A DNA stretch of 25,790 bases from a virus: the IMG/VR virus record IMGVR_UViG_3300048589_000640, positions 1 to 25,790 of that record; one strand, given 5' to 3'. Shown here piece after piece: positions 224 to 25,790 of this stretch (position 1 is its first letter; every line of letters starts with the position of its first letter). The notes beneath the pieces are model-generated. The model made no database searches and had not been told where the DNA came from. It saw only the letters and a list, made by a program, of their open reading frames with translations. The position numbers and the translations under genes were made by a program.

Positions 224-2542
224 TCAGGCGACGATGGCGCCGTAGAAGCCCCGGTAGTCGCGCACGGCGCCGCTGTACACGTGCCGGATCTTGTACTTGA
301 TCTGGTCGTTGCTGAAGAGGCTGCCCTGCGTCGGGTTGTCCTGGATGAACAGGCTCGGCTCCTCCCCGCCGTAGAAGCCAATCTCGATCAGCGGCACCTG
401 CGCGTTGTCGGCCGTCGCGAACCAGTTGTTCGTGTCGGTCCAGTAGTCCACCACGTGCACCGTCGGCTTGCGGCTCTGGACAAAGGTCTCGTCGTTGTTC
501 GTGTTGCGCACGAACAGGTCGAACGCGGTCTCCTCCAGCTCAGACGGCACCGCCAGGTGACGCAGCGTGAGACCGAGGCGCTTGGCGCTGGTGAGTTCGG
601 TCTGCTTCTTGACCGCCAGACGCGCGGCCGCAAAGTTGGCGGCGTTCAGAGCAGCCGTGCCAAGGTTCGCATGCGTCGCATGGAACAACGCCACGCCGTC
701 GTACACCGTCGGGTTGGTGGCCAGGAAGTTGTAGACGAACTCGTACAGCGTGCGACCCGCCGCAGTCGCGAGCGCCAGCGGGATGCGCCGAAGCATGCCG
801 ACATCGTCGTTGGCGACGGCCTCGAGGCTGATGGTCTCCGTGCCGCCGCGCTTGGTCACCGCGTAGGTGGCCTTGTCGTCACCCGGCGAGGTCAACGGAT
901 CATAGGCGCCGTTCTCGGCCACGGCCGGCAGATTGCCGTAGCCGCCCATCCGGGTGCGCTCCTGGGTGCGGAAGTCGGTCACCGGCACCACGTCGCACAG
1001 CCAGCGCCAGTCGCTGTAGGACTCCAGCGCGCCGTAGTCGCGGATCATCGCGCGCGTGATCGAGTCGCCCAGGATGTCGCCGAAGGTCGCGGCACTGATG
1101 GCTTCCGCGAAGCGCGTGCCCGCGACTGCTTCCCGCAGGCGCGCCATGTCGCATTCCTGGATCAGGCCCGAGATGCGGCGGTCGCCGGTCACTTCGATGT
1201 AGGCCTCCCGGAACGAGCGCGCCGGCTTCTTCGGGTCGAAGAAGTCGTCGAACATCTGGGTGACCTTCTGGCTGCGATCCTGGCCAGCCTCGACGCGCAT
1301 GTCACCCAGACCGGTGATGCGGGCCCCTTCGGTGACGCGCAACAGGTACTCGCGCTCGTCCTTGATCGCCCGGGAGACGTCGTCAGCGGCGATGCTGGTG
1401 GCCTCGACAAAGCGCTGGATGAGGCGGTCCTTGCTCGCCTGCGGCAATGCGGCGGCGCTGATCGCAGTACGCGCGTCAGCCCGGGCTTCAATCAGCTTGA
1501 ATCGAGCTTCGATGGTGTCGACCTGTCCCCCGGCCAATCCATTGGCCGGGGCGGTCGTACCGCTCTCTGCTGGTGGGGTGTGCGGGGTGGCCACCGCTTC
1601 GCGGTAGGCCGTGAGGACGGCAGCGTCATCGGCGTTCACCAGGCTGGCGGCCAGCACGGCGTTCGCAATGGCAATCTGGGAAATCATCTGCGTGCGCAGC
1701 ATGTCGGGCTCCTGGTGGGCTTCAACGAAACGAATGACTTGCCCGCCGGCGCCGGGCTCGATGATGAGATCCACGCTGCTCACCTTGATGAGCTTGGTGG
1801 CCTCCCGGAACTTGCCTTTCTGCTTGGCGGTGCCCTCGGCGTCGATCGACAGACCGAACAGATCGGTCATGCCGCGCGCCACGCACTCACGCAGCGTCTT
1901 GGCCACGCTGCTGCTCTCGAGCACGTCGAGAACGGCCTGCACTTCGCCGCCATTGGCTTCGACGAAGCGGGCGTCAGAGAGCTTGCCGACCAGGCGACGG
2001 AAATCCTTGGCGTCCGCCTTGCCCTGGATGTGCTCGACATCGGACTTCACGAACACGCGCACGCCATCGAACAGCGGCGCGGCTTCGCGCAACACTGCTC
2101 GGGGATAGTCGACGCCGTTCAGGCTGGTGCCCGCGCGAATCACGCGCACCAGGTAACGGGGCGGGACAGAAGCATCGCCTGCGAGCGCCTCGACGAAGAT
2201 CGAAGCGCCCGCAGGTCCTGCCTCCCGCGCCCCCGCGGACGGATGGCCCTCGCGCATGGCGACGGGCGTGTGATCGAGCACGACTTCAACGGCCGAGCCC
2301 AAGGTGATGACGTTCTTGTCGTCCAGCGTCCAGGGGTAGGCATACAGCCTGCCCTCGCGCTGGATGACGGCGCGGTCCGGGTAGACGGCGACGATGTTGA
2401 CCCAGTCGCCTTCGCGAATCGCGGCCACCTTGCGCACGGCGCCACGGATCAGCTCGATGACCTGGTGGAGTTCAGTCGCGGCCGCCTCGCGCAATGCGGT
2501 CTCGCCAATCAGGCCACCGGCAGGGATCACCGGCCGGATCAC
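224..2542 (-). CDS. Fused prohead protease-scaffold-major head protein
   Basis: This 772-residue protein combines functions that Mu spreads over separate genes. Residues about 110-280 resemble prohead proteases (RYLVRVIRAGTSLNGVDYP, FGLSIDAEG). Residues about 280-425 are Ala/Glu-rich and scaffold-like. Residues about 465-772 resemble the Mu gpT major head protein, with W-rich segments and an ending GFYGAIVA. It would make the capsid shell and process it during assembly. GTG at 2542 is chosen because it overlaps the upstream stop as GTGA and has AAGGA about six bases before it; a GTG at 2560 is the alternative. An F-x-E-A tetrapeptide recurs through the protein, and a perfect 11-bp palindrome sits in the protease-scaffold linker. 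The domain calls are by family resemblance; I did not identify the catalytic residues. Confidence 0.9.
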   Translation of the reverse strand: MIRPVIPAGGLIGETALREAAATELHQVIELIRGAVRKVAAIREGDWVNIVAVYPDRAVIQREGRLYAYPWTLDDKNVITLGSAVEVVLDHTPVAMREGHPSAGAREAGPAGASIFVEALAGDASVPPRYLVRVIRAGTSLNGVDYPRAVLREAAPLFDGVRVFVKSDVEHIQGKADAKDFRRLVGKLSDARFVEANGGEVQAVLDVLESSSVAKTLRECVARGMTDLFGLSIDAEGTAKQKGKFREATKLIKVSSVDLIIEPGAGGQVIRFVEAHQEPDMLRTQMISQIAIANAVLAASLVNADDAAVLTAYREAVATPHTPPAESGTTAPANGLAGGQVDTIEARFKLIEARADARTAISAAALPQASKDRLIQRFVEATSIAADDVSRAIKDEREYLLRVTEGARITGLGDMRVEAGQDRSQKVTQMFDDFFDPKKPARSFREAYIEVTGDRRISGLIQECDMARLREAVAGTRFAEAISAATFGDILGDSITRAMIRDYGALESYSDWRWLCDVVPVTDFRTQERTRMGGYGNLPAVAENGAYDPLTSPGDDKATYAVTKRGGTETISLEAVANDDVGMLRRIPLALATAAGRTLYEFVYNFLATNPTVYDGVALFHATHANLGTAALNAANFAAARLAVKKQTELTSAKRLGLTLRHLAVPSELEETAFDLFVRNTNNDETFVQSRKPTVHVVDYWTDTNNWFATADNAQVPLIEIGFYGGEEPSLFIQDNPTQGSLFSNDQIKYKIRHVYSGAVRDYRGFYGAIVA
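1528..1551. repeat. Perfect 11-bp inverted repeat inside the head polyprotein gene
   Basis: CCCCGGCCAAT (1528-1538) and its exact complement ATTGGCCGGGG (1541-1551) are separated by only two bases. On the minus strand this encodes the linker around PANGLAGG, between the protease-like and scaffold-like parts. Transcribed, it would form a very stable hairpin in the middle of the reading frame. There is no T-run after it on either strand, so it is not a classical terminator. Confidence 0.7.
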
Positions 2543-2739
2543 TCGACGAGTTCCTTCCACACGCGCACGTCGTCACTGACGACACGCACGTTGACCGCTT
2601 CAGCGAGCACTGTGACCTTGCCCTTCGGCGTGTAGCCCTCGGGCTTGCCAGGGGTCAGATCAGCATTCGCCGCAGCGCGCGCAGGCGCCTTCGCGGCGAG
2701 TTTGGCCGGCGGCGCGGCGGGGGACTTGGTCTGGGACAC
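2539..2739 (-). CDS. Small basic protein ahead of the head polyprotein
   Basis: A GTG start at 2739 with a strong AGGAG six bases upstream opens a 66-residue frame. The N-terminal half is Ala/Lys/Pro-rich and probably disordered. The C-terminal half (KGKVTVLAEAVNVRVV...VWKELVE) looks like a short folded strand-helix unit. Its stop overlaps the start of the protease-capsid gene as GTGA, so the two are translationally coupled. It is the first gene after the late promoter motif at 2804-2827. I do not recognise a family. A head-assembly accessory role is inferred from position only. Confidence 0.75.
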   Translation of the reverse strand: MSQTKSPAAPPAKLAAKAPARAAANADLTPGKPEGYTPKGKVTVLAEAVNVRVVSDDVRVWKELVE

Positions 2740-2803
2740 GGTTCGCTCCTGTCGGCATGAATGCGCGATGCAGGAGCGAATCTAGTGATGGGTGGCGGCG
2801 GGT

Positions 2804-2827
2804 ACTTTTAGCCGATGCTACTGAGCG
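2804..2827 (-). promoter_or_regulatory. Candidate late promoter of the head-protease operon (PI-like)
   Basis: Read on the minus strand the motif is CGCTCAGTAGCATCGG followed by CTAAAAGT. It matches the motif at 10349-10372 at 21 of 24 positions. It lies 65 bases upstream of the GTG at 2739 in a 244-bp gap that is otherwise without a supported gene. TAAAAGT could serve as the -10 element and the CAGTAGCA half as activator-contacted DNA. Mu has an activator-dependent late promoter (PI) at the equivalent place, before its protease gene. Confidence 0.65.
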
Positions 2828-9063: not shown

Positions 9064-9292
9064 GCTGCGCGTCGGCAAACGCCTGTTGGTCGCGGCGGGC
9101 GCGGGCGGCGGCATCGGTGATCTGTCGGAGTTCAGTGAGGGTGGACTGCTGCGCATCGAACACTTCCTCCAGATCGTTCAAGGCCACCGACGACTCACGC
9201 CAACCGCGCACCGTCCAGCCGCTGGTGAAGGCCAAAACAGCGACGGCCACGAGGGCCGCCAGCACCGGCTTGATGGCTAGCGCCTGGATCAT
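8792..9292 (-). CDS. Rz: Rz-like inner-membrane spanin
   Basis: ATG at 9292 overlaps the transglycosylase stop as ATGA. The 166-residue product has one N-terminal membrane segment (PVLAALVAVAVLAFTSGW), then a periplasmic coiled coil (LNDLEEVFDAQQSTLTELRQ) and the motif CRIGDDGLRLWNEAN, close to the RIPxxGVRLYN-type motif of Rz-family proteins. The C-terminal part is Gly/Ala-rich because the same bases also encode Rz1 in another frame. It acts with Rz1 at the last step of lysis. Confidence 0.83.
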   Translation of the reverse strand: MIQALAIKPVLAALVAVAVLAFTSGWTVRGWRESSVALNDLEEVFDAQQSTLTELRQITDAAARARRDQQAFADAQRARLLDWLFAPGPADDCRIGDDGLRLWNEANAGRAGGAAARGAAGAVPASAAGGERPRQDSGGQPREGDGSAGRLCNPPSGAGAVGSGRE

Positions 9293-9921
9293 GTCGGGCA
9301 CACCGGCTCACCGGGCCAGCCGGCCGCGAGGTAGGCAGGCTCAACCGTGTGCAGGATGCGGCGCACATAGCCGCGGTTCTCCCGCATCGCCCACCCGGCG
9401 CGGGCCGAGTGCAGCTCCACCTGGTCAAACCACGCTGACGCATCAGCACCGGCGAACGCCGCGCGCCGACGATCGCGCTGAACCCAGCCCAGGCCTCCGT
9501 TGTAGCCGCTGAGCGTCATCGCCCACCGATCGCATTCACTGGCCGTGTCGCTGACGCGTCGATACAGCCAGCGGTCGTAGCAGACGGCGGCGCGCATGCT
9601 CCAGTTGGGATCCCACACGTCGGGCGGGCCAAGGTTCGGGCAAACCGACGGAATCCACTGCGCCGTCGCCGGCGTGAACTGCGTCAAGCCCTGTGCGAAG
9701 CGGCTGGCGGCGGCAGGGTTCCAGCGCGACTCCTGGTGCACCTGGGCGGCGATGCGCGCGGCCGGACGCAGGTCACCAAAGTGCGCGGCCACCTCGTGCT
9801 CCAGCTTGAGCCGATAGAGCACCGACGTCGCAGGGATGCTCACCGGATCGGCTGGCGCCGGTGCGGCCAACGCCACGCAGGCAACCAACAGCCCCAGGGC
9901 AACGTGCGCAAGGCGCTTCAT
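9289..9921 (-). CDS. Lytic transglycosylase (SLT family) endolysin
   Basis: A 210-residue peptidoglycan-cleaving enzyme. It has an N-terminal signal peptide (MKRLAHVALGLLVACVALAA). The SLT fold motifs follow in order: catalytic Glu at residue 64 in VHQESRWNP, then GLTQFTPATAQW (79-90), then SGYNGG (138-143). It probably acts after export, released or activated when the holin permeabilises the membrane. ATG at 9921 overlaps the holin stop (ATGA). It lies between holin-like and spanin genes, so use as the phage endolysin is more likely than use as a virion enzyme. Confidence 0.92.
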   Translation of the reverse strand: MKRLAHVALGLLVACVALAAPAPADPVSIPATSVLYRLKLEHEVAAHFGDLRPAARIAAQVHQESRWNPAAASRFAQGLTQFTPATAQWIPSVCPNLGPPDVWDPNWSMRAAVCYDRWLYRRVSDTASECDRWAMTLSGYNGGLGWVQRDRRRAAFAGADASAWFDQVELHSARAGWAMRENRGYVRRILHTVEPAYLAAGWPGEPVCPT

Positions 9922-10316
9922 TGGATGAGCCCCGCCGAGAGCATGGCAGCACCAACGATGAACGCGCGCCGCTTCTCCGCCGCCATTCGAGCCACATCGA
10001 GCGCGGTGGTGCCCAGCGAATCGCTCGGGTCAGTGCGGAACTGCGACGGCCGCGAGTGCGGATGCAACAGGCGGTCGATCCAGTAGCCCAGGTAGGCGAG
10101 GCCTGCGACCTTGCAGATCAGCCAGGCGAAGATGCCGAGCTTGCTGGCATTGGCGGCGTCACCCCCGCCGGAGAGGATCGGATTGGGCGTGGCGATCAGC
10201 CACAGCGCAACGGCGCAGACCAGCGCCAACGGCCATGCACGCGCGAAGTCCACCACGCGCGCGACAGCGGTCGCGACAATGGCCTTGAGTCTTTCGAGGA
10301 GAGCGGATGTGTCCAT
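9918..10316 (-). CDS. Putative holin
   Basis: This 132-residue protein has hydrophobic segments near residues 28-44 (PLALVCAVALWLIA), 58-80 (LGIFAWLICKVAGLAYLGYW) and 118-131 (FIVGAAMLSAGLIQ), with a charged middle. It is the first gene of the lysis cluster and is directly followed by the transglycosylase. Holins are recognised mainly by size, membrane segments and place, so this is inference. ATG at 10316 has no strong ribosome-binding site but lies 33 bases after the late promoter motif. Confidence 0.75.
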   Translation of the reverse strand: MDTSALLERLKAIVATAVARVVDFARAWPLALVCAVALWLIATPNPILSGGGDAANASKLGIFAWLICKVAGLAYLGYWIDRLLHPHSRPSQFRTDPSDSLGTTALDVARMAAEKRRAFIVGAAMLSAGLIQ

Positions 10317-10348
10317 GCCGGCGATGCTGCCGGCGTCGGCTGGCGCGA

Positions 10349-10372
10349 ACTTTTAACCGTTGCTACTGGGCG
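10349..10372 (-). promoter_or_regulatory. Candidate late promoter of the lysis operon (Plys-like)
   Basis: Read on the minus strand the motif is CGCCCAGTAGCAACGG followed by TTAAAAGT. It is 21/24 identical to the motif at 2804-2827 and ends 33 bases before the holin ATG. Mu's activator-dependent Plys promoter lies at the equivalent place. The most likely activator is the Mor-like protein at 23973-24353, because no separate C gene is visible in the window. Confidence 0.68.
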
Positions 10373-10654: not shown

Positions 10655-11512
10655 TCAAGCCACCGCTGACCGCGACGTGATAACTTCGTCAGGCGTAGCC
10701 AGCTTGTCTGCAAAGATCATCACCTCCGCGCCCTGATATCTCGACTGTGCGCTATAGGTCAGGCTGAAGGGCTGCTGGCGATAGCCTAAGTAAAGCTCGC
10801 GAATCTCCGGGACGTCGTCGTAGCTAACGAGCCAAGGCTGGGAGATCTGACCGACCATGCGCGCAATCTCAGCGTGGTCGCTGTGCTTGTAGTGGTGCTC
10901 GTAGAGCCCAGAACCCTTTACGTAGTAGGGGGGGTCCAAGTACACCAACGACCGCTTCGGCAACTGCGGAAGCACCTCCGTGAGCATGTGCGCTGCGTCA
11001 AGATTGTAGAGGTTGATTCGACGGCGCCAACGACCAATCCGCTCAATGCGGCTGATCAAATCTTCCTTGTTAAACCTCGCGTCCAACTTCCATTCACCAG
11101 CCTGCGCCTTTCCGCCAATCACGCCTCCCAGGACTATCCCGGACCGGTTCGTGCGATTCAGGAAGAAGGTCGAAAACGCCAGGTCGAGCGGAGAGGGGCA
11201 ATCCTCGGTCTGAACCTCACGTTGGCGTTGCCACTCCCGCATCGTGACTCGGGTTCGGCGAATTCGACCACAAAGCGCCTCGTTCTCGTTCAACACTGCC
11301 CACCAGAAGGCGTGCACGGCACGATTGATGTCATTGATGTGGATGTGCCTTGCGTACTCCAGCCCGAGCAAGGTTATGGCAACGCCAGCCCCTCCAGCAT
11401 AGGGTTCCACATAGTCGCCACCAACCAGTCGATTTGCGACCATCACATCCGCGACATATTGCGCGAGTCGCCCCTTTCCGCCCGGGTAGCGCAGTGGAGT
11501 GTTGAATTGCAC
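10655..11512 (-). CDS. Dam-type DNA adenine methyltransferase (D12 class)
   Basis: A 285-residue N6-adenine methyltransferase. The AdoMet-binding start is LRYPGGKGRL (residues 7-16), followed by EPYAGGAGVA (36-45). The substrate region NRTNRSG is at 119-125, and the catalytic DPPYY at 193-197. Full family length suggests an active enzyme; GATC or another short target cannot be read from sequence. GTG at 11512 is used, with AGGGGA about nine bases upstream. It lies 34 bases after the ParB-like gene in the same direction, as a two-gene unit. Several stretches are visibly lower in GC than the flanking phage genes, suggesting acquisition as cargo. Likely roles are protection of phage DNA from restriction, or the methylase half of a modification-dependent defence. 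Confidence 0.93.
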   Translation of the reverse strand: MQFNTPLRYPGGKGRLAQYVADVMVANRLVGGDYVEPYAGGAGVAITLLGLEYARHIHINDINRAVHAFWWAVLNENEALCGRIRRTRVTMREWQRQREVQTEDCPSPLDLAFSTFFLNRTNRSGIVLGGVIGGKAQAGEWKLDARFNKEDLISRIERIGRWRRRINLYNLDAAHMLTEVLPQLPKRSLVYLDPPYYVKGSGLYEHHYKHSDHAEIARMVGQISQPWLVSYDDVPEIRELYLGYRQQPFSLTYSAQSRYQGAEVMIFADKLATPDEVITSRSAVA

Positions 11513-11546
11513 GGCGCTTATCCCCTATCGGCAGTGGCCCGTTCTA

Positions 11547-12935
11547 TCAAGGTTTCGCCTTCTTGGCCAGCGTCGAACTCTCGGTTGCGGCGAAGATACG
11601 AACGAAGTACTCGTGCCACTTCGCCCAGATCTTCTTAACTTCCGAAGCATCAGGCTCTGCCTTGAGGTTGTGCACGAAGTCATGGAGGTTGTCGATGAAG
11701 TGAATCGAGTCCGTTGATTGAACTCCCTTGCGCGCCTCGGCTAGATCCTTCTCCTTCCCGGAAGGATCAAGCGCCTTCAAGGTCGCCTTGATCTTTGCTT
11801 CCAGTGACAGCCCCTTCTCCGACCAGTTCTTCCAAGCCGGCTTGCCAGGCTTACCTGCTGGAAGAGGCACCTTCATTGTCTTGAGGTAGTAGTCGGTGCT
11901 GAGCTCGACGAAAAGGCGGCAAAGCACTGCCGCAGAGTTCGTCAGCGTCGCCACGTTGATATCCCTTGCTTCCTTGTAGAGTTCGGTGAGCCGCCTGTCC
12001 TTAATCTTCAACACGTGCTGCGACCCAGACAGCGCAAGCATGGTGCGATCAGCTTGCTTCGGAGTCGGACGGGTCGTCTTCTGGGTGCTCTTGGGTATCG
12101 TCTTCGCTGCATTTCCACGAGACGTGGGCTCGCCGGTACATGCCCTGTCGGAGAAGTCGTCGATGAGTGCCCAGCGCTGACCCTTCGAACGGATATCGTT
12201 GACGTTGAAGCCATCTGAAGTCATCCGCTCGACCAGGGCCCTTAGCAACTTCGCGCCTTTCGCGTCGTCGCCATTCTCGAAGCTCACGTCTCCTGACTTC
12301 GATATCTTCACGCCCAAGGTGGATGCCATGTACGGCATCTGGAGAACGCGGTCTAGGTTTGTCGTCTTACGACGAGTTGCGGTGTCCAACTTAGCGGGCA
12401 ACTGCGATTGATCACGCAAGAAGTCGAGAACCGCCTTAGACGGCCGAACGCGGCCGCGGTAGGCGTCGGCCCGACTGGTCGCTTCTGACTCCCACTGCGC
12501 AAGCCCGCGTCCGCTCTTGGGGTTGTGCTTTCTTTCGATCCAGGTGAACGCGGTGTCCTTGTCGGGCAGTTCGGTGCATGAAACAGATCGGATCGGGTGC
12601 TTGTTAAACCGCTTCGAGAGCTTGACGAAGCTCTGGTACTGCTTCGTTCCAGATGCCAATCGCGGATCCTCCATCATCCGTATGGCAGTGAGGCGGCGGT
12701 TGCCCTCGCAAACAGTGAAGTGTCCGGGTTCGTCGTCGTCCGGGATGACGATGAACCGCTCTGCCGGGCTCAGTCCGTGTTCAAGGATGTCGGCAGCGAG
12801 GTTGACCAGCTTCTCCTTCTGATCCTCAAGCATGGCGCGGTAAGTCGCCCTGACATCATCGTATTCGCCGAGGCGGAAGTTCGAGAGATCAACGGACAGC
12901 AGATCGATGTCGATTTCATGGTTCTTTGCGCTCAC
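11547..12935 (-). CDS. ParB/Srx-fold protein with helical C-terminal domain
   Basis: A 462-residue protein. Residues about 40-90 match the ParB/sulfiredoxin-like N-terminal fold: LVNLAADILEHGL, then FIVIPDDDEPGHFTVCEGNR with the E-G-N-R-R core at 77-81, a variant of the ParB GERR box. A segment TWIERKHNPKSGRGLAQWES (131-150) recalls a group of ParB-like proteins that are not chromosome-partitioning factors. The C-terminal part (about 310-450) is helical with an HDFVHN motif at 418-423, loosely like helical domains of defence proteins. GTG start at 12935 has GGGGGAG just upstream. No ParA and no clustered parS-like repeats were noticed, so partitioning is unlikely. The paired methyltransferase suggests a nuclease or DNA-modification role; this is inference. 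Confidence 0.82.
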   Translation of the reverse strand: MSAKNHEIDIDLLSVDLSNFRLGEYDDVRATYRAMLEDQKEKLVNLAADILEHGLSPAERFIVIPDDDEPGHFTVCEGNRRLTAIRMMEDPRLASGTKQYQSFVKLSKRFNKHPIRSVSCTELPDKDTAFTWIERKHNPKSGRGLAQWESEATSRADAYRGRVRPSKAVLDFLRDQSQLPAKLDTATRRKTTNLDRVLQMPYMASTLGVKISKSGDVSFENGDDAKGAKLLRALVERMTSDGFNVNDIRSKGQRWALIDDFSDRACTGEPTSRGNAAKTIPKSTQKTTRPTPKQADRTMLALSGSQHVLKIKDRRLTELYKEARDINVATLTNSAAVLCRLFVELSTDYYLKTMKVPLPAGKPGKPAWKNWSEKGLSLEAKIKATLKALDPSGKEKDLAEARKGVQSTDSIHFIDNLHDFVHNLKAEPDASEVKKIWAKWHEYFVRIFAATESSTLAKKAKP

Positions 12936-14070: not shown

Positions 14071-14709
14071 TCACAATTTGCCGGTCGTCAGGCGCACGCG
14101 CGCACCACCGCTGACGTGGCCCACGGCGGTGCTGCCGTGCGAGGCGGTGACGTTCGTGATGCGTGCCCCCTTCTTGCCTGCCGCTGCATCCTGCTGGCTG
14201 GAGTCCGTCAGCGCCCACTTGCGCATCGCTTCCGGCGTAGGTTCCTGACCGGTGGTCAGCTCGTAGTCGAGCGCCCAGGCTTCCAGGAAGGCGTGCACCT
14301 GGTCTGCGGTGCCGGCGCCGGTCTCGATGGCGGCGGTGCCGCTTCCGACGCAGGCGTTGTACACCGCGGCGCGGTGGCGGCCGCGCACGATGAAGGGCAT
14401 CACCAGGCCAGGAATGCGCCGCTGTAGCTCTGCCGAGAGGTTGTGCTCGACAGCCTCCAGCAGGTCAGCGTTGAGCTTCAGGGGGTCGAAGTCTTTGGGT
14501 GCGCCTTCGGGTGCTTCGTACTTGCTGGGCCACAGCCGATACAGCGGGATGTCGGTGATCTCGCTGATGCGTTGTTCCACTCGCTTGGAACGCCCCACGC
14601 CCTTGATGACTTGTCGGACGCTCTTTTCCGAGATCTCGAACTCAGCAGCAATTGTTGTCGGCGACTCGCCGGCCTTTTTCAAAGCTGCACGAATGTCCTC
14701 AGGGTGCAT
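14071..14709 (-). CDS. Ner-fold transcription regulator with long C-terminal domain (probable repressor)
   Basis: A 212-residue protein. Residues 1-63 are a Ner/Nlp-like helix-turn-helix domain (MHPEDIRAALKKAGESPTTI ... IPLYRLWPSKY), ending in the WPxxY element known from Mu Ner. The rest (about 64-212) is a different domain of unknown fold, perhaps for oligomerisation. ATG at 14709 is chosen because MHPEDI aligns with the start of the paralogue at 15136 and GGAG lies six bases upstream; a GTG at 14730 would add seven residues. It is divergent from the early operon, the usual position of a transposable-phage repressor. That role is inferred from position and fold; it is not like the Mu c repressor in sequence. 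Confidence 0.82.
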   Translation of the reverse strand: MHPEDIRAALKKAGESPTTIAAEFEISEKSVRQVIKGVGRSKRVEQRISEITDIPLYRLWPSKYEAPEGAPKDFDPLKLNADLLEAVEHNLSAELQRRIPGLVMPFIVRGRHRAAVYNACVGSGTAAIETGAGTADQVHAFLEAWALDYELTTGQEPTPEAMRKWALTDSSQQDAAAGKKGARITNVTASHGSTAVGHVSGGARVRLTTGKL

Positions 14710-14723
14710 GAGGCGCTCCGCCG

Positions 14724-14752
14724 TTGACACGCGGCAGAAGTTGAACTAAGGT
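14724..14752 (+). promoter_or_regulatory. Candidate early promoter
   Basis: TTGACA at 14724-14729 is followed after 17 bases by TAAGGT at 14747-14752. Transcription would start near 14760 and run into the Ner-like gene at 14815. It overlaps the leader of the divergent regulator, and the inverted repeats at 14756-14789 lie immediately downstream, as expected for a repressed early promoter. The -10 match is only moderate. Confidence 0.5.
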
Positions 14753-14755
14753 CGC

Positions 14756-14789
14756 TTCCGTGGGTCGGAAACGGACTCCGATACCGACC
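14756..14789. promoter_or_regulatory. Overlapping inverted repeats, candidate operator of the lysis-lysogeny switch
   Basis: TTCCG-TGGGT-CGGAA is a perfect repeat at 14756-14770. GGTCGG (14763-14768) pairs with CCGACC (14784-14789). CGGA-C-TCCG lies between them at 14772-14780. The three dyads share bases, so binding at one would compete with another. They fall in the 105-bp divergent region between regulator genes that share a Ner-like domain. Confidence 0.55.
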
Positions 14790-14814
14790 TGTTCACGTCT
14801 GCCGAGAACATTCA

Positions 14815-15132
14815 ATGGACGCACTCCTCATCAAATATGCGTTGCGCGCCAAGGGACACTCGATCGCCGCAATTGCGCGCACGTGCACCAACTCCGTGAC
14901 CGGTGAACCGCTCGCCGAAAAGAGCGTGCGCGCGGTTATCCAGCGCGATAGCCGCTCGGCCCGCATCGAACGCCTGATTGGGTCCCTCTTGGGGTTGCCG
15001 CTGCACCACGTTTTCCCGGAGTGGTATGCGGAAGACGGCAGCAAGATCAAACATCGCCGCAAGCGCTATAGCAGCACCGTCGACAGCCTCGCACGCCTCA
15101 ACGCAATGCTTTCTGAGCAGCAGGCGGCCTGA
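14815..15132 (+). CDS. Ner-like DNA-binding regulator, first gene of the early operon
   Basis: A 105-residue protein with a Ner/Nlp-type helix-turn-helix: IKYALRAKGHSIAAIARTC, then EKSVRAVIQRDSRSARIERL, then LGLPLHHVFPEWYAED. The last element aligns with the WPSRYQ end of Mu Ner. In Mu, Ner turns down early and repressor transcription. A basic tail (KIKHRRKRYSS) follows. ATG at 14815 has only a weak ribosome-binding site. The next gene starts four bases after its stop. Being first in the operon is typical of ner. Confidence 0.85.
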   Translation: MDALLIKYALRAKGHSIAAIARTCTNSVTGEPLAEKSVRAVIQRDSRSARIERLIGSLLGLPLHHVFPEWYAEDGSKIKHRRKRYSSTVDSLARLNAMLSEQQAA

Positions 15133-15135
15133 CCC

Positions 15136-15588
15136 ATGCACCCGGCCGACATCAAGGCTGCACTCAAGAAGGCTGGCGCCACTGCAGCGGCTATTGCGCG
15201 CGAGCGCGGCGTCAGCCAACCCACCGTCAGTGAGGTAATCCTGGGCAACAGGCGCTCGGCTCCCACGGAGTTGCGTGTCGCAGAGATCACTGGCCTGCCG
15301 CTGTCTCATCTCTGGCCCCAGTGGTACTCGCCAGGACCTGGTGCGCCTGAGGAACGAGGCATCAGCCTTGTCGGCTTTCGCGCGCGACTGGGCGCTGAGC
15401 TGGATCGGCTCGACCTCAGTCCAGAAGCTGTCGCTGCCGTTGCACGTGTCTCGGTGGATGACGTCAGCAGCTGGCGGAGCGACGGCGGCGCGTACCCGAC
15501 GGTGCCATCCCTGATCTGGCTCGGCCAGGCCACGCGCATCGACCTGGCCTACGTGATGACCGGACGGCGCGAGGTGACCCATGGCTGA
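15136..15588 (+). CDS. Second Ner-like regulator with an added C-terminal helix-turn-helix-like domain
   Basis: A 150-residue protein. Residues 1-65 are a Ner-type domain (MHPADIKAALKKAGATAAAI ... LPLSHLWPQWYSPG), closely resembling the N-terminus of the divergent regulator at 14071-14709. Residues about 72-145 (FRARLGAELDRLDLSPEAVA ... IDLAYVMTGRREV) look like a second, XRE/CI-like helical DNA-binding unit ending in the YVMTG motif seen in many phage repressors. ATG follows the previous stop by three bases. It may be the true lysogeny regulator, a second Ner, or an antagonist of the minus-strand protein. Confidence 0.83.
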   Translation: MHPADIKAALKKAGATAAAIARERGVSQPTVSEVILGNRRSAPTELRVAEITGLPLSHLWPQWYSPGPGAPEERGISLVGFRARLGAELDRLDLSPEAVAAVARVSVDDVSSWRSDGGAYPTVPSLIWLGQATRIDLAYVMTGRREVTHG

Positions 15589-18376: not shown

Positions 18377-20155
18377 ATGCATCCGGGCGAGATCGCAGAG
18401 CTTGACTTGCTGCGCGGCGTGGCCGATCGCCTGCACAAGGCCGCGCATGGCTCGCGTGAGGCGGTGGTGCTGGACGCCTGCCGCATGCTTGGCTGCAAGC
18501 GCGGTGCGCTGTACACCAAGCTGCGTAAGGTGGGCTGGTGCAGCGGCAGGGCACTGCGCGCCGACAAGGGCGACTGCAGGGTAACCGAGGCGGAAGTGCG
18601 CGCGGTGTCCGCCATCATGATGGCGTCAAGGCGCATGACCGGCAAGATTCTGCTGCCGGTCTGCGATGCCATCGACATCGCGCTGGCCAACAGCAAGCTC
18701 ACTGAGCGTGTCGCGCCGAGCACCATGTTGCGCTTGATGCGCAAGTTCGACTGCCATCCGACGCAGCTCCAGCGGCCCACGTCGCACGTCGGCATGGCGT
18801 CCTTGCACCCCAACCATGTGTGGCAGCTCGATGCCTCGGTCTGCGTGCTGTACCGACTGAAGAACGGCCGTACCAAAGTGCTGGACGAGCGCACGTTCAA
18901 CGCGCGAAAGCCGGCCGACCTCGCGAAGATCCTCAACGAGCGATTGCTGCGCTACGCCATCACGGATCACACGACGGGCGTCGTCATCGCGCGCTACTAC
19001 GTGGCCGCCGGCGAAGACCAGCGCACGCTGTTCGACTTCCTGATGTGGGCCTTCCACCCCCAGACGGGCCGGGTGATGCACGGGGTTCCGTGGATGCTGG
19101 TGTGGGACGCGGGCAGCGCCAACCAGAGCCACGCGATTCGCAACCTGCTCACGGCGCTGGGCATCCGCCACTGGGCACATGTGCCTGGCAACAGCCGCGC
19201 CAAGGGCCAAGTGGAGCGCATGCACGACATCGTCGAGCGGAAGTTCGAAGGCCGGCTGTCGTTCCTCAATGTCGAGAGCGTTGAACAGCTCAACGCCGAG
19301 CTGGACGTTTTCCTGATCTCCTTCAATGGCGTGGCAAAGCTGACGCGTGGAACGCACCAACACGTGCGCAACGCGCTGTGGCAGACGATACGGCCCGAGC
19401 AGTTGCGCCTTTGCCCCCCGGTCGAGACATGCGCCGTGTTGATGCACAGCAAGCCCGAGCTGCGCACGGTGACTGGCAACCTCACCATCACGTTCAAGCC
19501 GCGCAACTCGGTGCGGCATACGTACAGCGTGGCGGACGTACCCGCAGTGCGGTCGGGTGAACAGGTGGCTGTGGCCATCAACCCCTACTGCTCCCCCGCG
19601 ATCTTCGTGATCGCACAGGACGAGTCTGGTAGCACGCGCTACTTCGAATGCGAGCCGCTGGAGATCAACGAGGCCGGGTTCATTCATGGTTCGCCCGTGT
19701 TTGGCGAGTCCTATGCGGCCCACGCCGACAGTGACGTCGATATCGCCCGCAAGCAGGCTAACCTCGCCGCCTACGGTGAGCGCGATGGCGGCGACGCACT
19801 CGCGGCCAAGGCCAAGGGCAGAGTGGCCTTCGCCGGCCAAATCGATCCGTTCAAGGATCTGCGCGAGAAGGCCGCTGCGACACCCCACTTCATGCGGCGC
19901 GGGGGCACGGACCTCGATCTCCCCAACCCGATGCACGTCGAGCCCCGCCACCACTCGATGGTGGACCTGTTGTTCGCGCTGCGCCGGCGGCTTGGCGACC
20001 GCTTCGGGGCGCGCGAATCCGAGGCTGTCCAGGTATGGCACCCCGACGGGCTGCCCGACGACCAGCTGGAGACCCTCTTTGAGCGCCTCGAGCAGCTCGA
20101 CGCCGCCGGCACGCCGCCGGCCACCGCAGCGCCGCGCCTGGTCGCGGTGCGATAG
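18377..20155 (+). CDS. Mu-type DDE transposase (A protein)
   Basis: A 592-residue transposase that cuts the phage ends and joins them to target DNA. The catalytic triad can be placed: D152 in WQLDASV, D244 in LVWDAGSAN, and E280 in GQVERMHD, with 35 residues between D244 and E280 as in retroviral-type integrases. An N-terminal helical DNA-binding part (SREAVVLDACRMLGCKRGAL) precedes the catalytic core. A beta-rich Mu-type C-terminal region (LTITFKPRNSVRHTYSVADV) and a tail that could contact the B protein follow. The sequence is nearer in style to BcepMu-like transposases than to Mu A. The ends it should recognise are the repeats near 24451-24491. Confidence 0.95.
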   Translation: MHPGEIAELDLLRGVADRLHKAAHGSREAVVLDACRMLGCKRGALYTKLRKVGWCSGRALRADKGDCRVTEAEVRAVSAIMMASRRMTGKILLPVCDAIDIALANSKLTERVAPSTMLRLMRKFDCHPTQLQRPTSHVGMASLHPNHVWQLDASVCVLYRLKNGRTKVLDERTFNARKPADLAKILNERLLRYAITDHTTGVVIARYYVAAGEDQRTLFDFLMWAFHPQTGRVMHGVPWMLVWDAGSANQSHAIRNLLTALGIRHWAHVPGNSRAKGQVERMHDIVERKFEGRLSFLNVESVEQLNAELDVFLISFNGVAKLTRGTHQHVRNALWQTIRPEQLRLCPPVETCAVLMHSKPELRTVTGNLTITFKPRNSVRHTYSVADVPAVRSGEQVAVAINPYCSPAIFVIAQDESGSTRYFECEPLEINEAGFIHGSPVFGESYAAHADSDVDIARKQANLAAYGERDGGDALAAKAKGRVAFAGQIDPFKDLREKAAATPHFMRRGGTDLDLPNPMHVEPRHHSMVDLLFALRRRLGDRFGARESEAVQVWHPDGLPDDQLETLFERLEQLDAAGTPPATAAPRLVAVR

Positions 20156-20824: not shown

Positions 20825-22042
20825 ATGCGCACTGGCCGCCCCCGCACCAAGCCTGCCGAGCCTTACCCGCTTCGCGATCTGATGGGCCACCACGGCATCA
20901 CGCTGCGTGACATCGCGGTGGCCGGGAGCATGTCGGTATCGTCCGCCTCCCGAATGCTGCTGCACAGGCACTGGCCCGGCCACGTTCTGGCCGACCGCTG
21001 CCGCAGCGGAATCGAACAGATGTTGCGCGACCGCGGCGTGCCCGAGGTCGACATCAAAACGGCATGGGGAGGCGACCTGCAAGCCGCCCCCCACACCGCC
21101 TCCAGCAACCCACCCCGCGTAGACAGCCCGAACGCCAATCCGAGCGCTGTCGACGCGGTCATTCCCTATGAGCTACCGGAGCTTGAAATGCTATCACCCG
21201 CCGCACGTGAGCACTTCCGCCTGCCCCGCAACCCCTTCCTGGACGATATCCAGGGGCCGGGCGACGTGTTTCTCAGCAAGGAGCAGAGGTACATCCGCGA
21301 GAGCATGTACTACGCCGCCAAGCACACTGGCCTGCTCGCTGTCATTGGCGAGTCCGGCAGCGGCAAGAGCACGCTGCGCCGCGACTTGCTCGACCGGCTG
21401 CGCCGCGACAACGAGCCCATCGTGGTCATCCAGCCGAAGACCATCGACAAGTCCGCGCTCACCGCCGCGCACATCTGCGACGCCATCACGGCCGACCTCA
21501 GCACCGAGGCACCGCGCATGTCGCTTGAGGCCAAGGGGCGGCAAGTCGAACGCATCCTCTCGAACAGTGCGCGCTGCGGCAACAGCCATGTGCTGGTGAT
21601 CGAAGAGGCGCACGACCTGACCAACTACGCGCTCAAGTACTTGAAGCGCTTCTGGGAGCTGGAGGATGGCTTCAATCGGCTGCTTGGCGTGGTGATGATC
21701 GGCCAGCCCGAACTGGCGAAGAAGCTCGACGAGCGCACCAACTACGATCTGCGCGAGCTGATCCGCCGCACCGAAATCGCCACGCTGCGACCGCTCAACG
21801 GCGACCTGGAGAACTACCTCGCCCTCAAGTTCAAGCGCATCGGCGTCGCCCTGGCCGATGTGTTCTGCGCTGACGCTTTCGACGCGATCCGCAGCCGGTT
21901 GATTCGACGCAAGCAGAACGCTCAGGACGTGGAGTCTCACGCCTATCCGCTGCTGGTCCACGCGATTGTCATCAAGGCAATGAACGCGGCGGCCGAGTTG
22001 GGCTTGCCCAAGGTCAGCGGTGAGCTGATTGGGAGGCTGTGA
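20825..22042 (+). CDS. MuB/TniB-like AAA+ ATPase, transposition target selector
   Basis: This 405-residue protein has an N-terminal helix-turn-helix (LRDIAVAGSMSVSSASRMLL) and an AAA+ domain with Walker A GESGSGKST (175-183) and Walker B VLVIEE (256-261), followed by AHDLT. The C-terminal RRTEIATLRPLNGDLENYLA and later helices match the MuB/TnsC/TniB family. Such ATPases coat target DNA, deliver it to the transposase and give target immunity. ATG lies one base after the preceding stop. Mu B is 312 residues, so this one has extra N-terminal length between the helix-turn-helix and the ATPase. Confidence 0.93.
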   Translation: MRTGRPRTKPAEPYPLRDLMGHHGITLRDIAVAGSMSVSSASRMLLHRHWPGHVLADRCRSGIEQMLRDRGVPEVDIKTAWGGDLQAAPHTASSNPPRVDSPNANPSAVDAVIPYELPELEMLSPAAREHFRLPRNPFLDDIQGPGDVFLSKEQRYIRESMYYAAKHTGLLAVIGESGSGKSTLRRDLLDRLRRDNEPIVVIQPKTIDKSALTAAHICDAITADLSTEAPRMSLEAKGRQVERILSNSARCGNSHVLVIEEAHDLTNYALKYLKRFWELEDGFNRLLGVVMIGQPELAKKLDERTNYDLRELIRRTEIATLRPLNGDLENYLALKFKRIGVALADVFCADAFDAIRSRLIRRKQNAQDVESHAYPLLVHAIVIKAMNAAAELGLPKVSGELIGRL

Positions 22043-23482: not shown

Positions 23483-23976
23483 GCCGCGCTCGCTCCGGCA
23501 AACCCGCGCAGTCGGCTCGCTCGGTCGACCTGGCCAAGATCCACATTGCCGCGACCGCACTCGGCATGATCAAGCCCGGCGACCGGGACACCTATGTCGC
23601 CATGCTGCGCGAGGTCGCCAAGGTCGACTCCGCTGCGGACCTGGACGCCGCCGGCCGAGCCAGGGTGTTGGCGCATCTGCGCAGCTGTGGCTGGGCAGAT
23701 CCCTCTCACCAGAAGCCTCCCGAAAGCACCGTGCGCTACGAACGCGGCACGCCGGCCGCACTGATCCGCTGGCTGTGGACACAGCTGGCCAAGGCCGGCC
23801 TGGTGGACGACAGCTCAGAGCGCGCCCTGCGGCGCTACATCGCCAACCATGCAGGCCTGGGCACGCCGCCAGAAACGATCACCGAGCGCGACCCTCGCCA
23901 CCTGGACCGCAAGGAAACCAGCCAGGTCATCGAGCAGCTCAAGCGCTGGCTCGCGCGGAAGGACGGTCAGGCATGA
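23479..23976 (+). CDS. gemA: GemA family protein (Mu gp16, DUF1018)
   Basis: A 165-residue protein of the GemA/DUF1018 family: LAKIHIAATALGMIKPGDRD, then YVAMLREVAKVDSAADLDAA, then VLAHLRSCGW, with the C-terminal LIRWLWTQLAKAGLVDDSSE segment also typical. In Mu, gemA affects host gene expression and DNA supercoiling. GTG at 23479 overlaps the preceding stop (GTGA). The stop overlaps the mor start (ATGA), so the gemA-mor order is as in Mu. Confidence 0.92.
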   Translation: MSRARSGKPAQSARSVDLAKIHIAATALGMIKPGDRDTYVAMLREVAKVDSAADLDAAGRARVLAHLRSCGWADPSHQKPPESTVRYERGTPAALIRWLWTQLAKAGLVDDSSERALRRYIANHAGLGTPPETITERDPRHLDRKETSQVIEQLKRWLARKDGQA

Positions 23977-24353
23977 CCGACGAACGCCATAGCTCCAACG
24001 CACAGCGCGTTCCCGAGCTCATGGTGGCGCTGGCCGACGTTGCCCAGCGCGTCATCCTGGCGCGCTGCCCGGAGTCGCTGGACCCGGACATCGGCAGTGA
24101 GATCGCGCGCGCATTCTGCATCGAGTTCGGTGGCGAACTGGTCTACATCCCCAAGGGTCACCACCTGGCCAAGCACGCCCGCGACCAGGCCCTGTACGAG
24201 TACTTCGTCCGGTCCGGCCGCAACGCTCAGGCCACCGGAAAGCAATTCGATCTCTGCGTGCAGCAGGTCTATCGGCGGATCAACATGATCGAAGAAGGCG
24301 AGGCCGCTCGTATCCAGCCCTCGCTGTTCGGCGGCGAGAGCACTGAGGGTTGA
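23973..24353 (+). CDS. mor: Mor-family transcription activator
   Basis: This 126-residue protein belongs to the Mor/C family: an N-terminal dimerisation part (VPELMVALADVAQRVILARC), then IAREFC-like IARAFCIEFGGELVYIPKGH, then a C-terminal helix-turn-helix (ATGKQFDLCVQQVYRRINMI). In Mu, Mor activates the middle promoter and C the late promoters. Here it is the last early gene and no second family member is visible. I infer that it directly activates the late motif seen at 2804 and 10349. A possible terminator follows at once. Confidence 0.92.
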   Translation: MTDERHSSNAQRVPELMVALADVAQRVILARCPESLDPDIGSEIARAFCIEFGGELVYIPKGHHLAKHARDQALYEYFVRSGRNAQATGKQFDLCVQQVYRRINMIEEGEAARIQPSLFGGESTEG

Positions 24354-24491: not shown

Positions 24492-24844
24492 CGCTGAAGC
24501 GTCTGCAGCCGCGGTGCTTGCCGCGGGCTCGCGAAGCGGCTGGATCAGCATGGTTCAACGCGCGCCCCGGAATGGTGCAGTGCGAGATTGACGGCGACCC
24601 GGCTGGCTGTAATCTGCGCTCGCACTTCCGCACGGGGGCACGGCGGAAGCAGCGACCCGACCCGTCCGTCGTCCGGGCGAATTCCTGAGTTTGGTTCTCC
24701 GCAGATCAGCGGCGGTGCGGCGGCGTGTTGTTTGAAGCAGTGCGGAACGCGAAGCGCGGCCTGGCCGCATTCGCTGCGGTTGCTCGTTCGGCGGCGCGGG
24801 AAATCTCTCGCGTCGAATCCCTGGTCCTTCGAAGGAGTCTGGCA
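24492..24844. other. Bacterial leader region between phage end and protease gene
   Basis: These 353 bases hold no open frame that looks like a gene. Two hairpins are visible: CCGCGG-TGCTTG-CCGCGG (24509-24526) and CTTCCGC with GCGGAAG (24625-24631 / 24643-24649). No convincing -35/-10 pair was found. The region probably contains the natural leader of the protease gene, which the phage has left with at most about 350 bp of its original upstream DNA. Confidence 0.5.
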
Positions 24845-25790
24845 ATGCGTCATGTCGTACCTGCTGCACTGGCTTGCGCGATTTCGTTGTGTCTCATCGG
24901 CAGCGTCGACGCGCGCAGCGTCGCCAAGCCGGATGCCGGTTTCCGGCTCGGTGATGCGACCGTCCTGCCGTCGCCCGACCTGTCCAAGCTGACCGCTGAA
25001 GACGCCAAGACCATCGGCGGCGCCTACCGCTACGGGGTGCAGATTCCGGTCAGCGGCATGCGTATCGGTCAGAAGGGCTTTGGCAGCTGGAGCAGGACCG
25101 CCAAGGGCCAGTCGGTGTGGACTTGGAAAGCCGTCTCGCCGGCGGCGCGCACCATCGACATGCACTTCTCGCGTCTTGTTCTGCCTAGCAGCGCCACCCT
25201 GATCATCAAGGGCGAAGGCGAAGGCAATCAGCGCTTCATCGATGCCAGCCAGCTGAGCGGAACCGAGTTCTGGTCGCCCTACATTGCCGGCGAAAGCGTC
25301 ACCCTGCAGCTGGTGGTGGACGCCGCGCAGCAGAAGCAGGTGGAGCTTGAGCTGGCGGCAGTGACCCACGGCTACCGCGGCATCTTCGACACCGCCGACT
25401 CGCTCGAGAAGTCCGGCTCGTGCAACGTCGACACCATCTGTGCCACCGGCAATGCCTGGCGCGACCAGATCGACGCCGTCGGCCAGTACACCTTCAGCCA
25501 GGGCGGCAGCTCCTATGTCTGCACCGGTACCCTGCTGGCCAATACCTCCAACAGCACCACGCCCTACTTCCTCACCGCCAACCACTGCCTGAGCACGCAG
25601 ACCGTCGCCAGCACCATGGTGGTGTACTGGAACTACCAGAGCGCGACCTGCCGCACGGTGGGATCGACCGCCAGCGGCACGCCGATCAACAAGAGCATCG
25701 CCAGCCATTCGCAGTCCGGCGCCACCCTGCGGGCAACCCGCTCGGCCAGCGACTTCACCCTGGTGCAGCTCAACTCGGCGGTACCGACGG
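24845..25790 (+). CDS. Secreted lysyl-endopeptidase-like serine protease, N-terminal part
   Basis: AGGAG (24833-24837) lies seven bases before the ATG, and the frame stays open for 315 codons to the window edge. It has a signal peptide (MRHVVPAALACAISLCLIGS, then VDARS). A propeptide of about 165 residues follows, and then the mature-type start SGSCNVDTIC (from residue 190). This matches Achromobacter-type lysyl endopeptidase, which begins with SGSCN and paired cysteines. The trypsin-fold catalytic His247 is in TANHC and Asp303 in SDFTLVQLN. The catalytic Ser lies beyond the window. It is secreted and cleaves proteins, probably after Lys or a related residue. It is host DNA beside the phage. 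Confidence 0.9.
   Translation, partial: MRHVVPAALACAISLCLIGSVDARSVAKPDAGFRLGDATVLPSPDLSKLTAEDAKTIGGAYRYGVQIPVSGMRIGQKGFGSWSRTAKGQSVWTWKAVSPAARTIDMHFSRLVLPSSATLIIKGEGEGNQRFIDASQLSGTEFWSPYIAGESVTLQLVVDAAQQKQVELELAAVTHGYRGIFDTADSLEKSGSCNVDTICATGNAWRDQIDAVGQYTFSQGGSSYVCTGTLLANTSNSTTPYFLTANHCLSTQTVASTMVVYWNYQSATCRTVGSTASGTPINKSIASHSQSGATLRATRSASDFTLVQLNSAVPT

Follow-up and report, generated by a model that had tools for sequence, protein, structure and literature searches.

Paired dyads at the lysis and head operons of a B3/BcepMu-type phage as probable operators of a single Mor-family activator

Genome plan of the window and the two motif copies

We examined a 25.8-kb stretch of viral DNA (IMG/VR virus record IMGVR_UViG_3300048589_000640, positions 1 to 25,790; hereafter the window) and found that its genome plan is that of phages B3 and BcepMu. 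The early genes lie on the plus strand and comprise HTH_35 regulators, transposase A (18377-20155, +), transposase B (20825-22042, +), Gam, GemA and a Mor-family activator gene (23973..24353, +; 126 aa), which is the last recognised gene of the early operon and matched PF08765 with an E-value of 3.5e-16. In phmmer searches the window Mor matched the structures of Mu Mor (1rr7, E 4e-7) and Mu C (9l0x, E 7e-6). The late genes lie on the minus strand, in the order holin, lytic transglycosylase, Rz, Gp27-type terminase small subunit, large terminase, portal, MuF, a 66-aa gene and a protease-head fusion. The first lysis gene is the holin (9918..10316, minus strand, ATG at 10316; PHROG 1528, E 2.7e-10; Pfam Holin_2-3), which is predicted to be leaderless, and the second is the lytic transglycosylase (SLT; 9289..9921, minus strand; PHROG 669, E 1.2e-41; Pfam SLT). 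The head operon opens with the 66-aa gene (2539..2739, minus strand), which has homologous short genes in relatives and starts at GTG 2739 behind an AGGAG Shine-Dalgarno sequence; the head maturation protease/major head fusion follows (224..2560, minus strand; PHROG 29592, E 8.5e-204; PHROG 4523, E 2.1e-46; PHROG 133, E 8.4e-44).

Of the three HTH_35 (Ner/Nlp-like) proteins encoded around the early/late divide (14071-15588), two are rightward and one is leftward. The minus-strand stretch 10655-12935, upstream of the lysis operon and co-directional with it, encodes a D12-class adenine methylase and a 462-aa protein (PHROG 9592, unknown), so that read-through into the holin is possible. Beside the end of the Mor gene, an ORF at 24725-25789 (+) resembles, as judged by eye, a host secreted serine endopeptidase, and the prophage therefore probably ends just before 24725.

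The original prediction had placed a conserved 24-nt late promoter motif at the heads of the lysis and head operons. Copy 1 (PI-type; 2804..2827, minus strand) reads CGCTCAGTAGCATCGGCTAAAAGT from 2827 to 2804, and copy 2 (Plys-type; 10349..10372, minus strand) reads CGCCCAGTAGCAACGGTTAAAAGT from 10372 to 10349. Their 21/24 identity and the common blocks named for them were confirmed on the minus strand, as were the distances of 33 and 65 nt, measured from the motif 3' ends to ATG 10316 of the holin and to GTG 2739. Each copy contains a dyad: AGTAGC-ATCG-GCTAAAAG in copy 1 (2822..2805, centre between 2815 and 2814) and AGTAGC-AACG-GTTAAAAG in copy 2 (10367..10350, centre between 10360 and 10359). 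The blocks CAGTAGCA and TAAAAGT are thus present, and they are the two arms of one dyad; likewise, the motif is conserved at both operon heads, but what is conserved is a dyad operator and not a whole promoter. A scan of the window for the 20-nt core, allowing up to 3 mismatches, gave these two copies only.

Dyads and promoter geometry in related phages

We gathered 77 related contigs by portal search; in the close clade the portal is about 60-79% identical, and hosts among relatives are Rudaea and Lysobacterales MAGs. The dyad of copy 1 recurs at the protease head of relatives and that of copy 2 at their lysis head, so the motif lies at exactly the two positions at which the original prediction expected related phages to conserve it. 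The window-clade form is (T)TTAGC-N4-GCTAAAAG. In particular, AGTAGC-N4-GCTAAAAG is common to L008, L023 and the window, and other close-clade head dyads are CTTTTAGC-N4-GCTAAAAGA (L005), TTTAGC-N4-GCTAAAAG (L007) and TTAAC-GCGC-GTTAAAAG (L014). Four long contigs (G003, G009, G014 and G017; about 41-43 kb) contain exactly two good copies each. The tail region had been suggested as a place for further copies; for the window's clade we scanned the tail half of each of G002, G003, G009, G014 and G017 and, at up to 5 mismatches, found no convincing third dyad.

We also carried out a motif-free search, which took, for each genome, the 650-700 nt preceding the protease gene and looked for their best recurrence upstream of the portal. 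Most other genomes gave a lysis-head dyad that was 18-22/22 identical within the genome and differed between clades: GGCCGAC-N4-GTCGGCCTTA or GGCCAGC-N4-GCTGGCCTTA in Comamonadaceae phages (the GGCC clade), CCGGACAG-GTGTCCGG in L021, TATGGAAG-AG-CTTCCATA in L025, TTTACTAACTTAGGTTAAAAG in L026 and L077, and GGCGCACCATGGTGCGCC in L072. A few genomes, including the window, had another best match by the motif-free score, and for these we relied on the known dyad; KP12 and Mu gave no long common operon-head dyad by the same simple method. Identity within a genome together with change between clades is the trace expected of a co-evolving trans-acting protein. Among cultured phages, only Microcystis phage Mae-JY22 (PP438414; L117/L220) was a close relative by its portal (49%); its recorded cyanobacterial host deserves a check, since its relatives sit in proteobacteria.

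Downstream of each dyad we located a -10 element by its computed spacing. The predicted -10 of the head/protease promoter is TAGATT (2779..2784, minus strand), at +31..+36 from the dyad centre, supported by the fixed spacing and the nAnnnT pattern across clades; that of the lysis promoter is CAGCAT (10324..10329, minus strand), a weak element placed by the same spacing and pattern. Both lie about 20 nt downstream of the motif. From the -10 spacing, transcription would start at about 2773-2771 at PI and at or adjoining A10316 at Plys. The holin ATG is at +44 from the dyad centre, as in relatives, and since the first lysis ATG comes 7-8 nt after the -10 at Plys, the lysis message would be leaderless. 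In an alignment of the GGCC-clade sites by dyad centre, every one of the 54 unique sites had A at +34 and T at +38 (54/54), the bases that matter most in a -10, with boxes such as CACAGT, GACAGT, GAAAGT and CACGAT and a preference for CA at +44/+45. In the window's clade, nAnnnT is at about +31..+36 (TAGATT, CAGCAT, GATCAT, CACTTT) and is less strict, T+36 being present in 65%. Canonical -10 spacing would put the dyad centre at about -42.5 in the window clade and -44.5 in the GGCC clade, and no usable -35 was found, the dyad itself occupying the -35 region. The Mu Mor dyad spans -51 to -36, centred at -43.5, at a promoter that also has no -35 (PMC4287176). TAAAAGT was considered as a -10 box and rejected, because a better-placed nAnnnT is conserved at a fixed distance further downstream; given that geometry, TAAAAGT is read as an operator arm. 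Many GGCC-clade PI promoters also have an inverted repeat, GTGCC-N6-GGCAC, that runs across the upstream edge of the -10 (e.g. L039, about 14575-14592).

The Mor-family protein and its candidate operators

We searched 55 distinct relative contigs and found Mor-family genes in 36, each as the sole family match, two of these matches being weak. Close-clade contigs with a Mor-family gene have one each (PF08765), in line with the earlier description of a phage type lacking a visible C gene, and no distinct C gene following a Mor-dependent middle promoter, as in a Mu-type cascade, was found in the window clade.

In the GGCC clade, a sister of the window's clade, the operator and the Mor recognition helix change together: GGCC-GA-C operators occur with the helix TER[QH]xxRI and GGCC-AG-C operators with TEG[QH]xxRI. 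Operator type (GA or AG) and Mor residue (R, or G/S) agreed in 25/25 genomes; in some AGC rows the automated pattern had taken an N-terminal TE-x-H, and the recognition helices read by eye were TEGQ, which left the class unchanged. The switching residue corresponds to an early recognition-helix position in Mu Mor (1rr7). Each trait switched three times on the portal tree and two on the Mor tree, too few switches for an independent-pairs test of operator against residue to reach 0.05. Further contigs were found by operator scan alone and then searched for Mor; G072, recovered by the operator pattern alone, has AGC-type operators and a TES Mor, and its sister G064, as well as G062, have GAC-type operators and TER. 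These findings, with the Mor-family gene in the window itself, lend support to the proposal that the motif is a likely binding site for the Mor-like protein.

G064 (IMGVR_UViG_3300012816_000022) carries two different Mor-family genes (35347-35676 and 38962-39243; L221, L224), both with a TER helix, a possible Mor/C-like duplication. Mor was not found in GGCC-type L043, L052, L056, L065 and L068, nor in L003; for L043, L052, L056 and L068, the predicted TER-helix Mor was sought by Pfam, by protein query and by an HMM on the early half. These four (GAC type) and L065 (GGCTGAAC) have operators at both operon heads and no recognisable Mor, and they may be either cut contigs or phages with a replaced activator.

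Two cultured Pseudomonas phages, B3 (L247) and Fc02 (L249), share the window's genome plan, with mor as the last early gene. In B3, the dyad TTTTCG-N6-CGAAAAG is at 11566, 19835 and 26818. In Fc02, the dyad TTTTCGC..CTTCCAAAAGA occurs exactly three times in the genome (11702, 20100 and 25607), preceding the holin, the protease and the tape measure, which are the heads of three induced clusters: strand-specific RNA-seq of Fc02 described three rightward clusters induced after the early (mor) operon, the first beginning with holin-endolysin, and the passages that describe these clusters propose no promoters for them (PMC9936078). The third operator, at the tape-measure gene, is present in B3 (26818), Fc02 (25607) and several GGCC-clade phages (L127, L133, L153), and a leaderless start is predicted there in L127 and L153. 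The annotated B3 protease start (19857) falls between the operator and the -10; a start at ATG 19887, which follows the -10 by 7 nt, is more likely.

Taken with the operator/helix co-variation, the position of the Fc02 dyads at the heads of clusters induced after mor suggests that the Mor-family protein probably activates the late genes directly, without a C relay. We therefore regard it as very probable, on sequence comparison, that each of the two motif copies is the dyad operator of a late promoter, one Plys-like and the other PI-like, in a B3/BcepMu-type phage, and that both are bound by a single Mor without a C relay.

Three other readings of the dyads were weighed. As for a chance repeat, the window has 2 direct 24-mer pairs at 21/24 or better, against a mean of 0.28 and a maximum of 2 in dinucleotide-shuffled windows, so about 0.3 pairs this good are expected window-wide and the 21/24 identity by itself is weak evidence. 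The positions, however, are not chance: the expectation for both members of a pair to lie within 120 nt ahead of these two operons is about 1e-5, and the recurrence of the dyad at both operon heads in close relatives settles the matter against this reading, to which we give practically no weight. An origin as terminators, or as RNA hairpins at the borders of operons, with no protein site, might be suggested by the GC-rich dyad of the GGCC clade and the T-rich stretch behind it, and separate terminator-like sequences do lie directly upstream of PI in L005 and L007. Yet in the window's clade the arms are rich in A/T and no T-run follows them, the spacing to nAnnnT is fixed, and the copies are near-identical within a genome and not between clades, all of which makes such an origin very improbable. 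Binding by another phage protein, such as the lysogeny repressor or an HTH_35 protein (three are encoded at 14071-15588), would make the dyads sites of repression; palindromes are typical of repressor operators, and some GGCC-clade contigs have operators without a recognisable Mor. Against it, it is the Mor recognition helix that co-varies with the operator, the dyad centre has the same place relative to the -10 as in the Mu Mor site, with no -35 for unaided polymerase, and the copies are at late operon heads only, with none at the early/repressor region. Repression is thus unlikely, if less so than the other two readings.

RNA hairpins at the starts and a model of late expression

A second and separate prediction concerns the RNA around both starts. 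At PI of the window, a start-masking RNA hairpin is predicted at 2744..2778 (minus strand) from arm co-variation between phages and from pairing probabilities. Its 5' arm, CGCTCCTG (2778-2771), lies between the -10 and the predicted start, and its 3' arm, CAGGAGCG (2751-2744), holds the Shine-Dalgarno sequence of GTG 2739. Elsewhere the pairing arms are CACTCCATCG with CGATGGAGTG (L039), GTCTCCGC with GCGGAGAC (L010) and TGCAACTC with GAGTTGCA (L077). A genome's own PI arms scored 17.9, against 13.8 +/- 0.5 for arms exchanged between genomes (0/5000 permutations, and again 0/5000 with one row per arm type). In 39 genomes, the mean unpaired probability of the PI Shine-Dalgarno was 0.16 in read-through RNA, 0.45 in RNA from the predicted start and 0.36 with a shuffled 5' arm; it was lower in read-through than in initiated RNA in 38/39 genomes, and the window itself gave 0.01 and 0.38, respectively. 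PI-started transcripts are predicted to lack the 5' arm of the hairpin, a prediction from canonical -10 spacing only.

At Plys, an inverted repeat GCCGGC-AGCATC-GCCGGC (10317..10334, minus strand) surrounds the -10 and abuts the holin ATG, and its arms also co-vary between phages (own arms 15.8, exchanged arms 13.7 +/- 0.4; 0/5000). The effect on the AUG is weaker than at PI, with unpaired probabilities of 0.30 in read-through RNA, 0.60 in initiated RNA and 0.40 with a shuffled arm (p 0.01). In the window the values were 0.28 and 0.39, with 0.30 for the shuffled arm, so that the Plys hairpin effect in the window itself is close to nil.

The computed pairing potential leads us to favour, with some reserve, a model in which both promoters lie within RNA hairpins that would mask the downstream start codon or Shine-Dalgarno in vivo in read-through transcripts only. 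The start-flanking repeats might instead be DNA sites of a second regulator, or plain structure near the Shine-Dalgarno, with no masking of read-through RNA; at Plys the -10 lies in the middle of the repeat, a placement that a repressor site could have, and the modest effect of the repeat on AUG pairing (compared with the shuffled arm) would fit. The PI loop, in turn, varies from about 10 to 40 nt with pairing kept through arm changes, which suits RNA and not a protein site, and the 3' arm regularly overlaps the Shine-Dalgarno. We consider the absence of a mask rather unlikely, though it is the most serious of the alternatives.

In the model we prefer, which combines Mor-bound dyads with masked starts, the early operon would be transcribed after induction through to mor, and a Mor dimer would then occupy each dyad about 42.5 bp upstream of the start and recruit host RNA polymerase to a poor -10 without a -35. 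The lysis and head genes (and, downstream, the tail genes) would start together, without the Mu relay through Pm and C. Read-through messages, whether from the methylase and other genes upstream of the holin or from the packaging operon upstream of the protease, would reach these genes but be poorly translated, with the starts of the lysis and head genes folded.

The proposed arrangement resembles Mu Pm in its Mor-family activator and in a dyad upstream of a -10 without a -35, centred there near -43.5 (PMC4287176); it differs in dyad sequence and in that its sites would drive lysis and head genes directly, with no C-making middle operon. With the C-activated Mu promoters Plys, PI and PP it shares the genes served (lysis, protease/head and, in relatives, tail) and a Mor/C-family activator (PMC4461284), whereas no C gene was found here, the Mor-like protein is the sole family member in window-clade contigs, and there are two sites only. 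B3 and Fc02 are alike in that mor ends a leftward early operon, the late genes are rightward and within-genome dyads mark the lysis and protease heads; their dyad sequences differ, and they have three sites (the tape measure too) against two in the window. In T4 gene e (lysozyme), early read-through RNA hides the start in a hairpin, and the late promoter lies within the part encoding the 5' strand (PMC3014915). The hairpins computed here would likewise hide a Shine-Dalgarno or AUG in long transcripts, but they are unrelated in sequence, and the prediction is stronger for the Mor-dependent PI than for Plys. Activation of the Mor/C type is thus of a known kind; the proposed wiring is new, and so, possibly, is the predicted translational guard.

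As a whole, the scheme in which, in B3/BcepMu-type phages, one Mor commands all late genes through a clade-specific operator, with specificity set largely by one helix residue and with a start-masking hairpin at each late promoter, seems to us evenly balanced between right and wrong. If true, lysis and head genes would be translated only from Mor-started transcripts, so that two locks would protect against premature lysis caused by prophage read-through, and in the predicted masks the T4 gene e control of lysis timing would have an independent counterpart. The operators, found in many genomes including B3 and Fc02, would give a sequence-level answer to how late genes are switched on in Mu-like phages without C, and the operator/helix pairs would make up a naturally occurring series of specificities in the Mor/C family, for which PDB structures exist.
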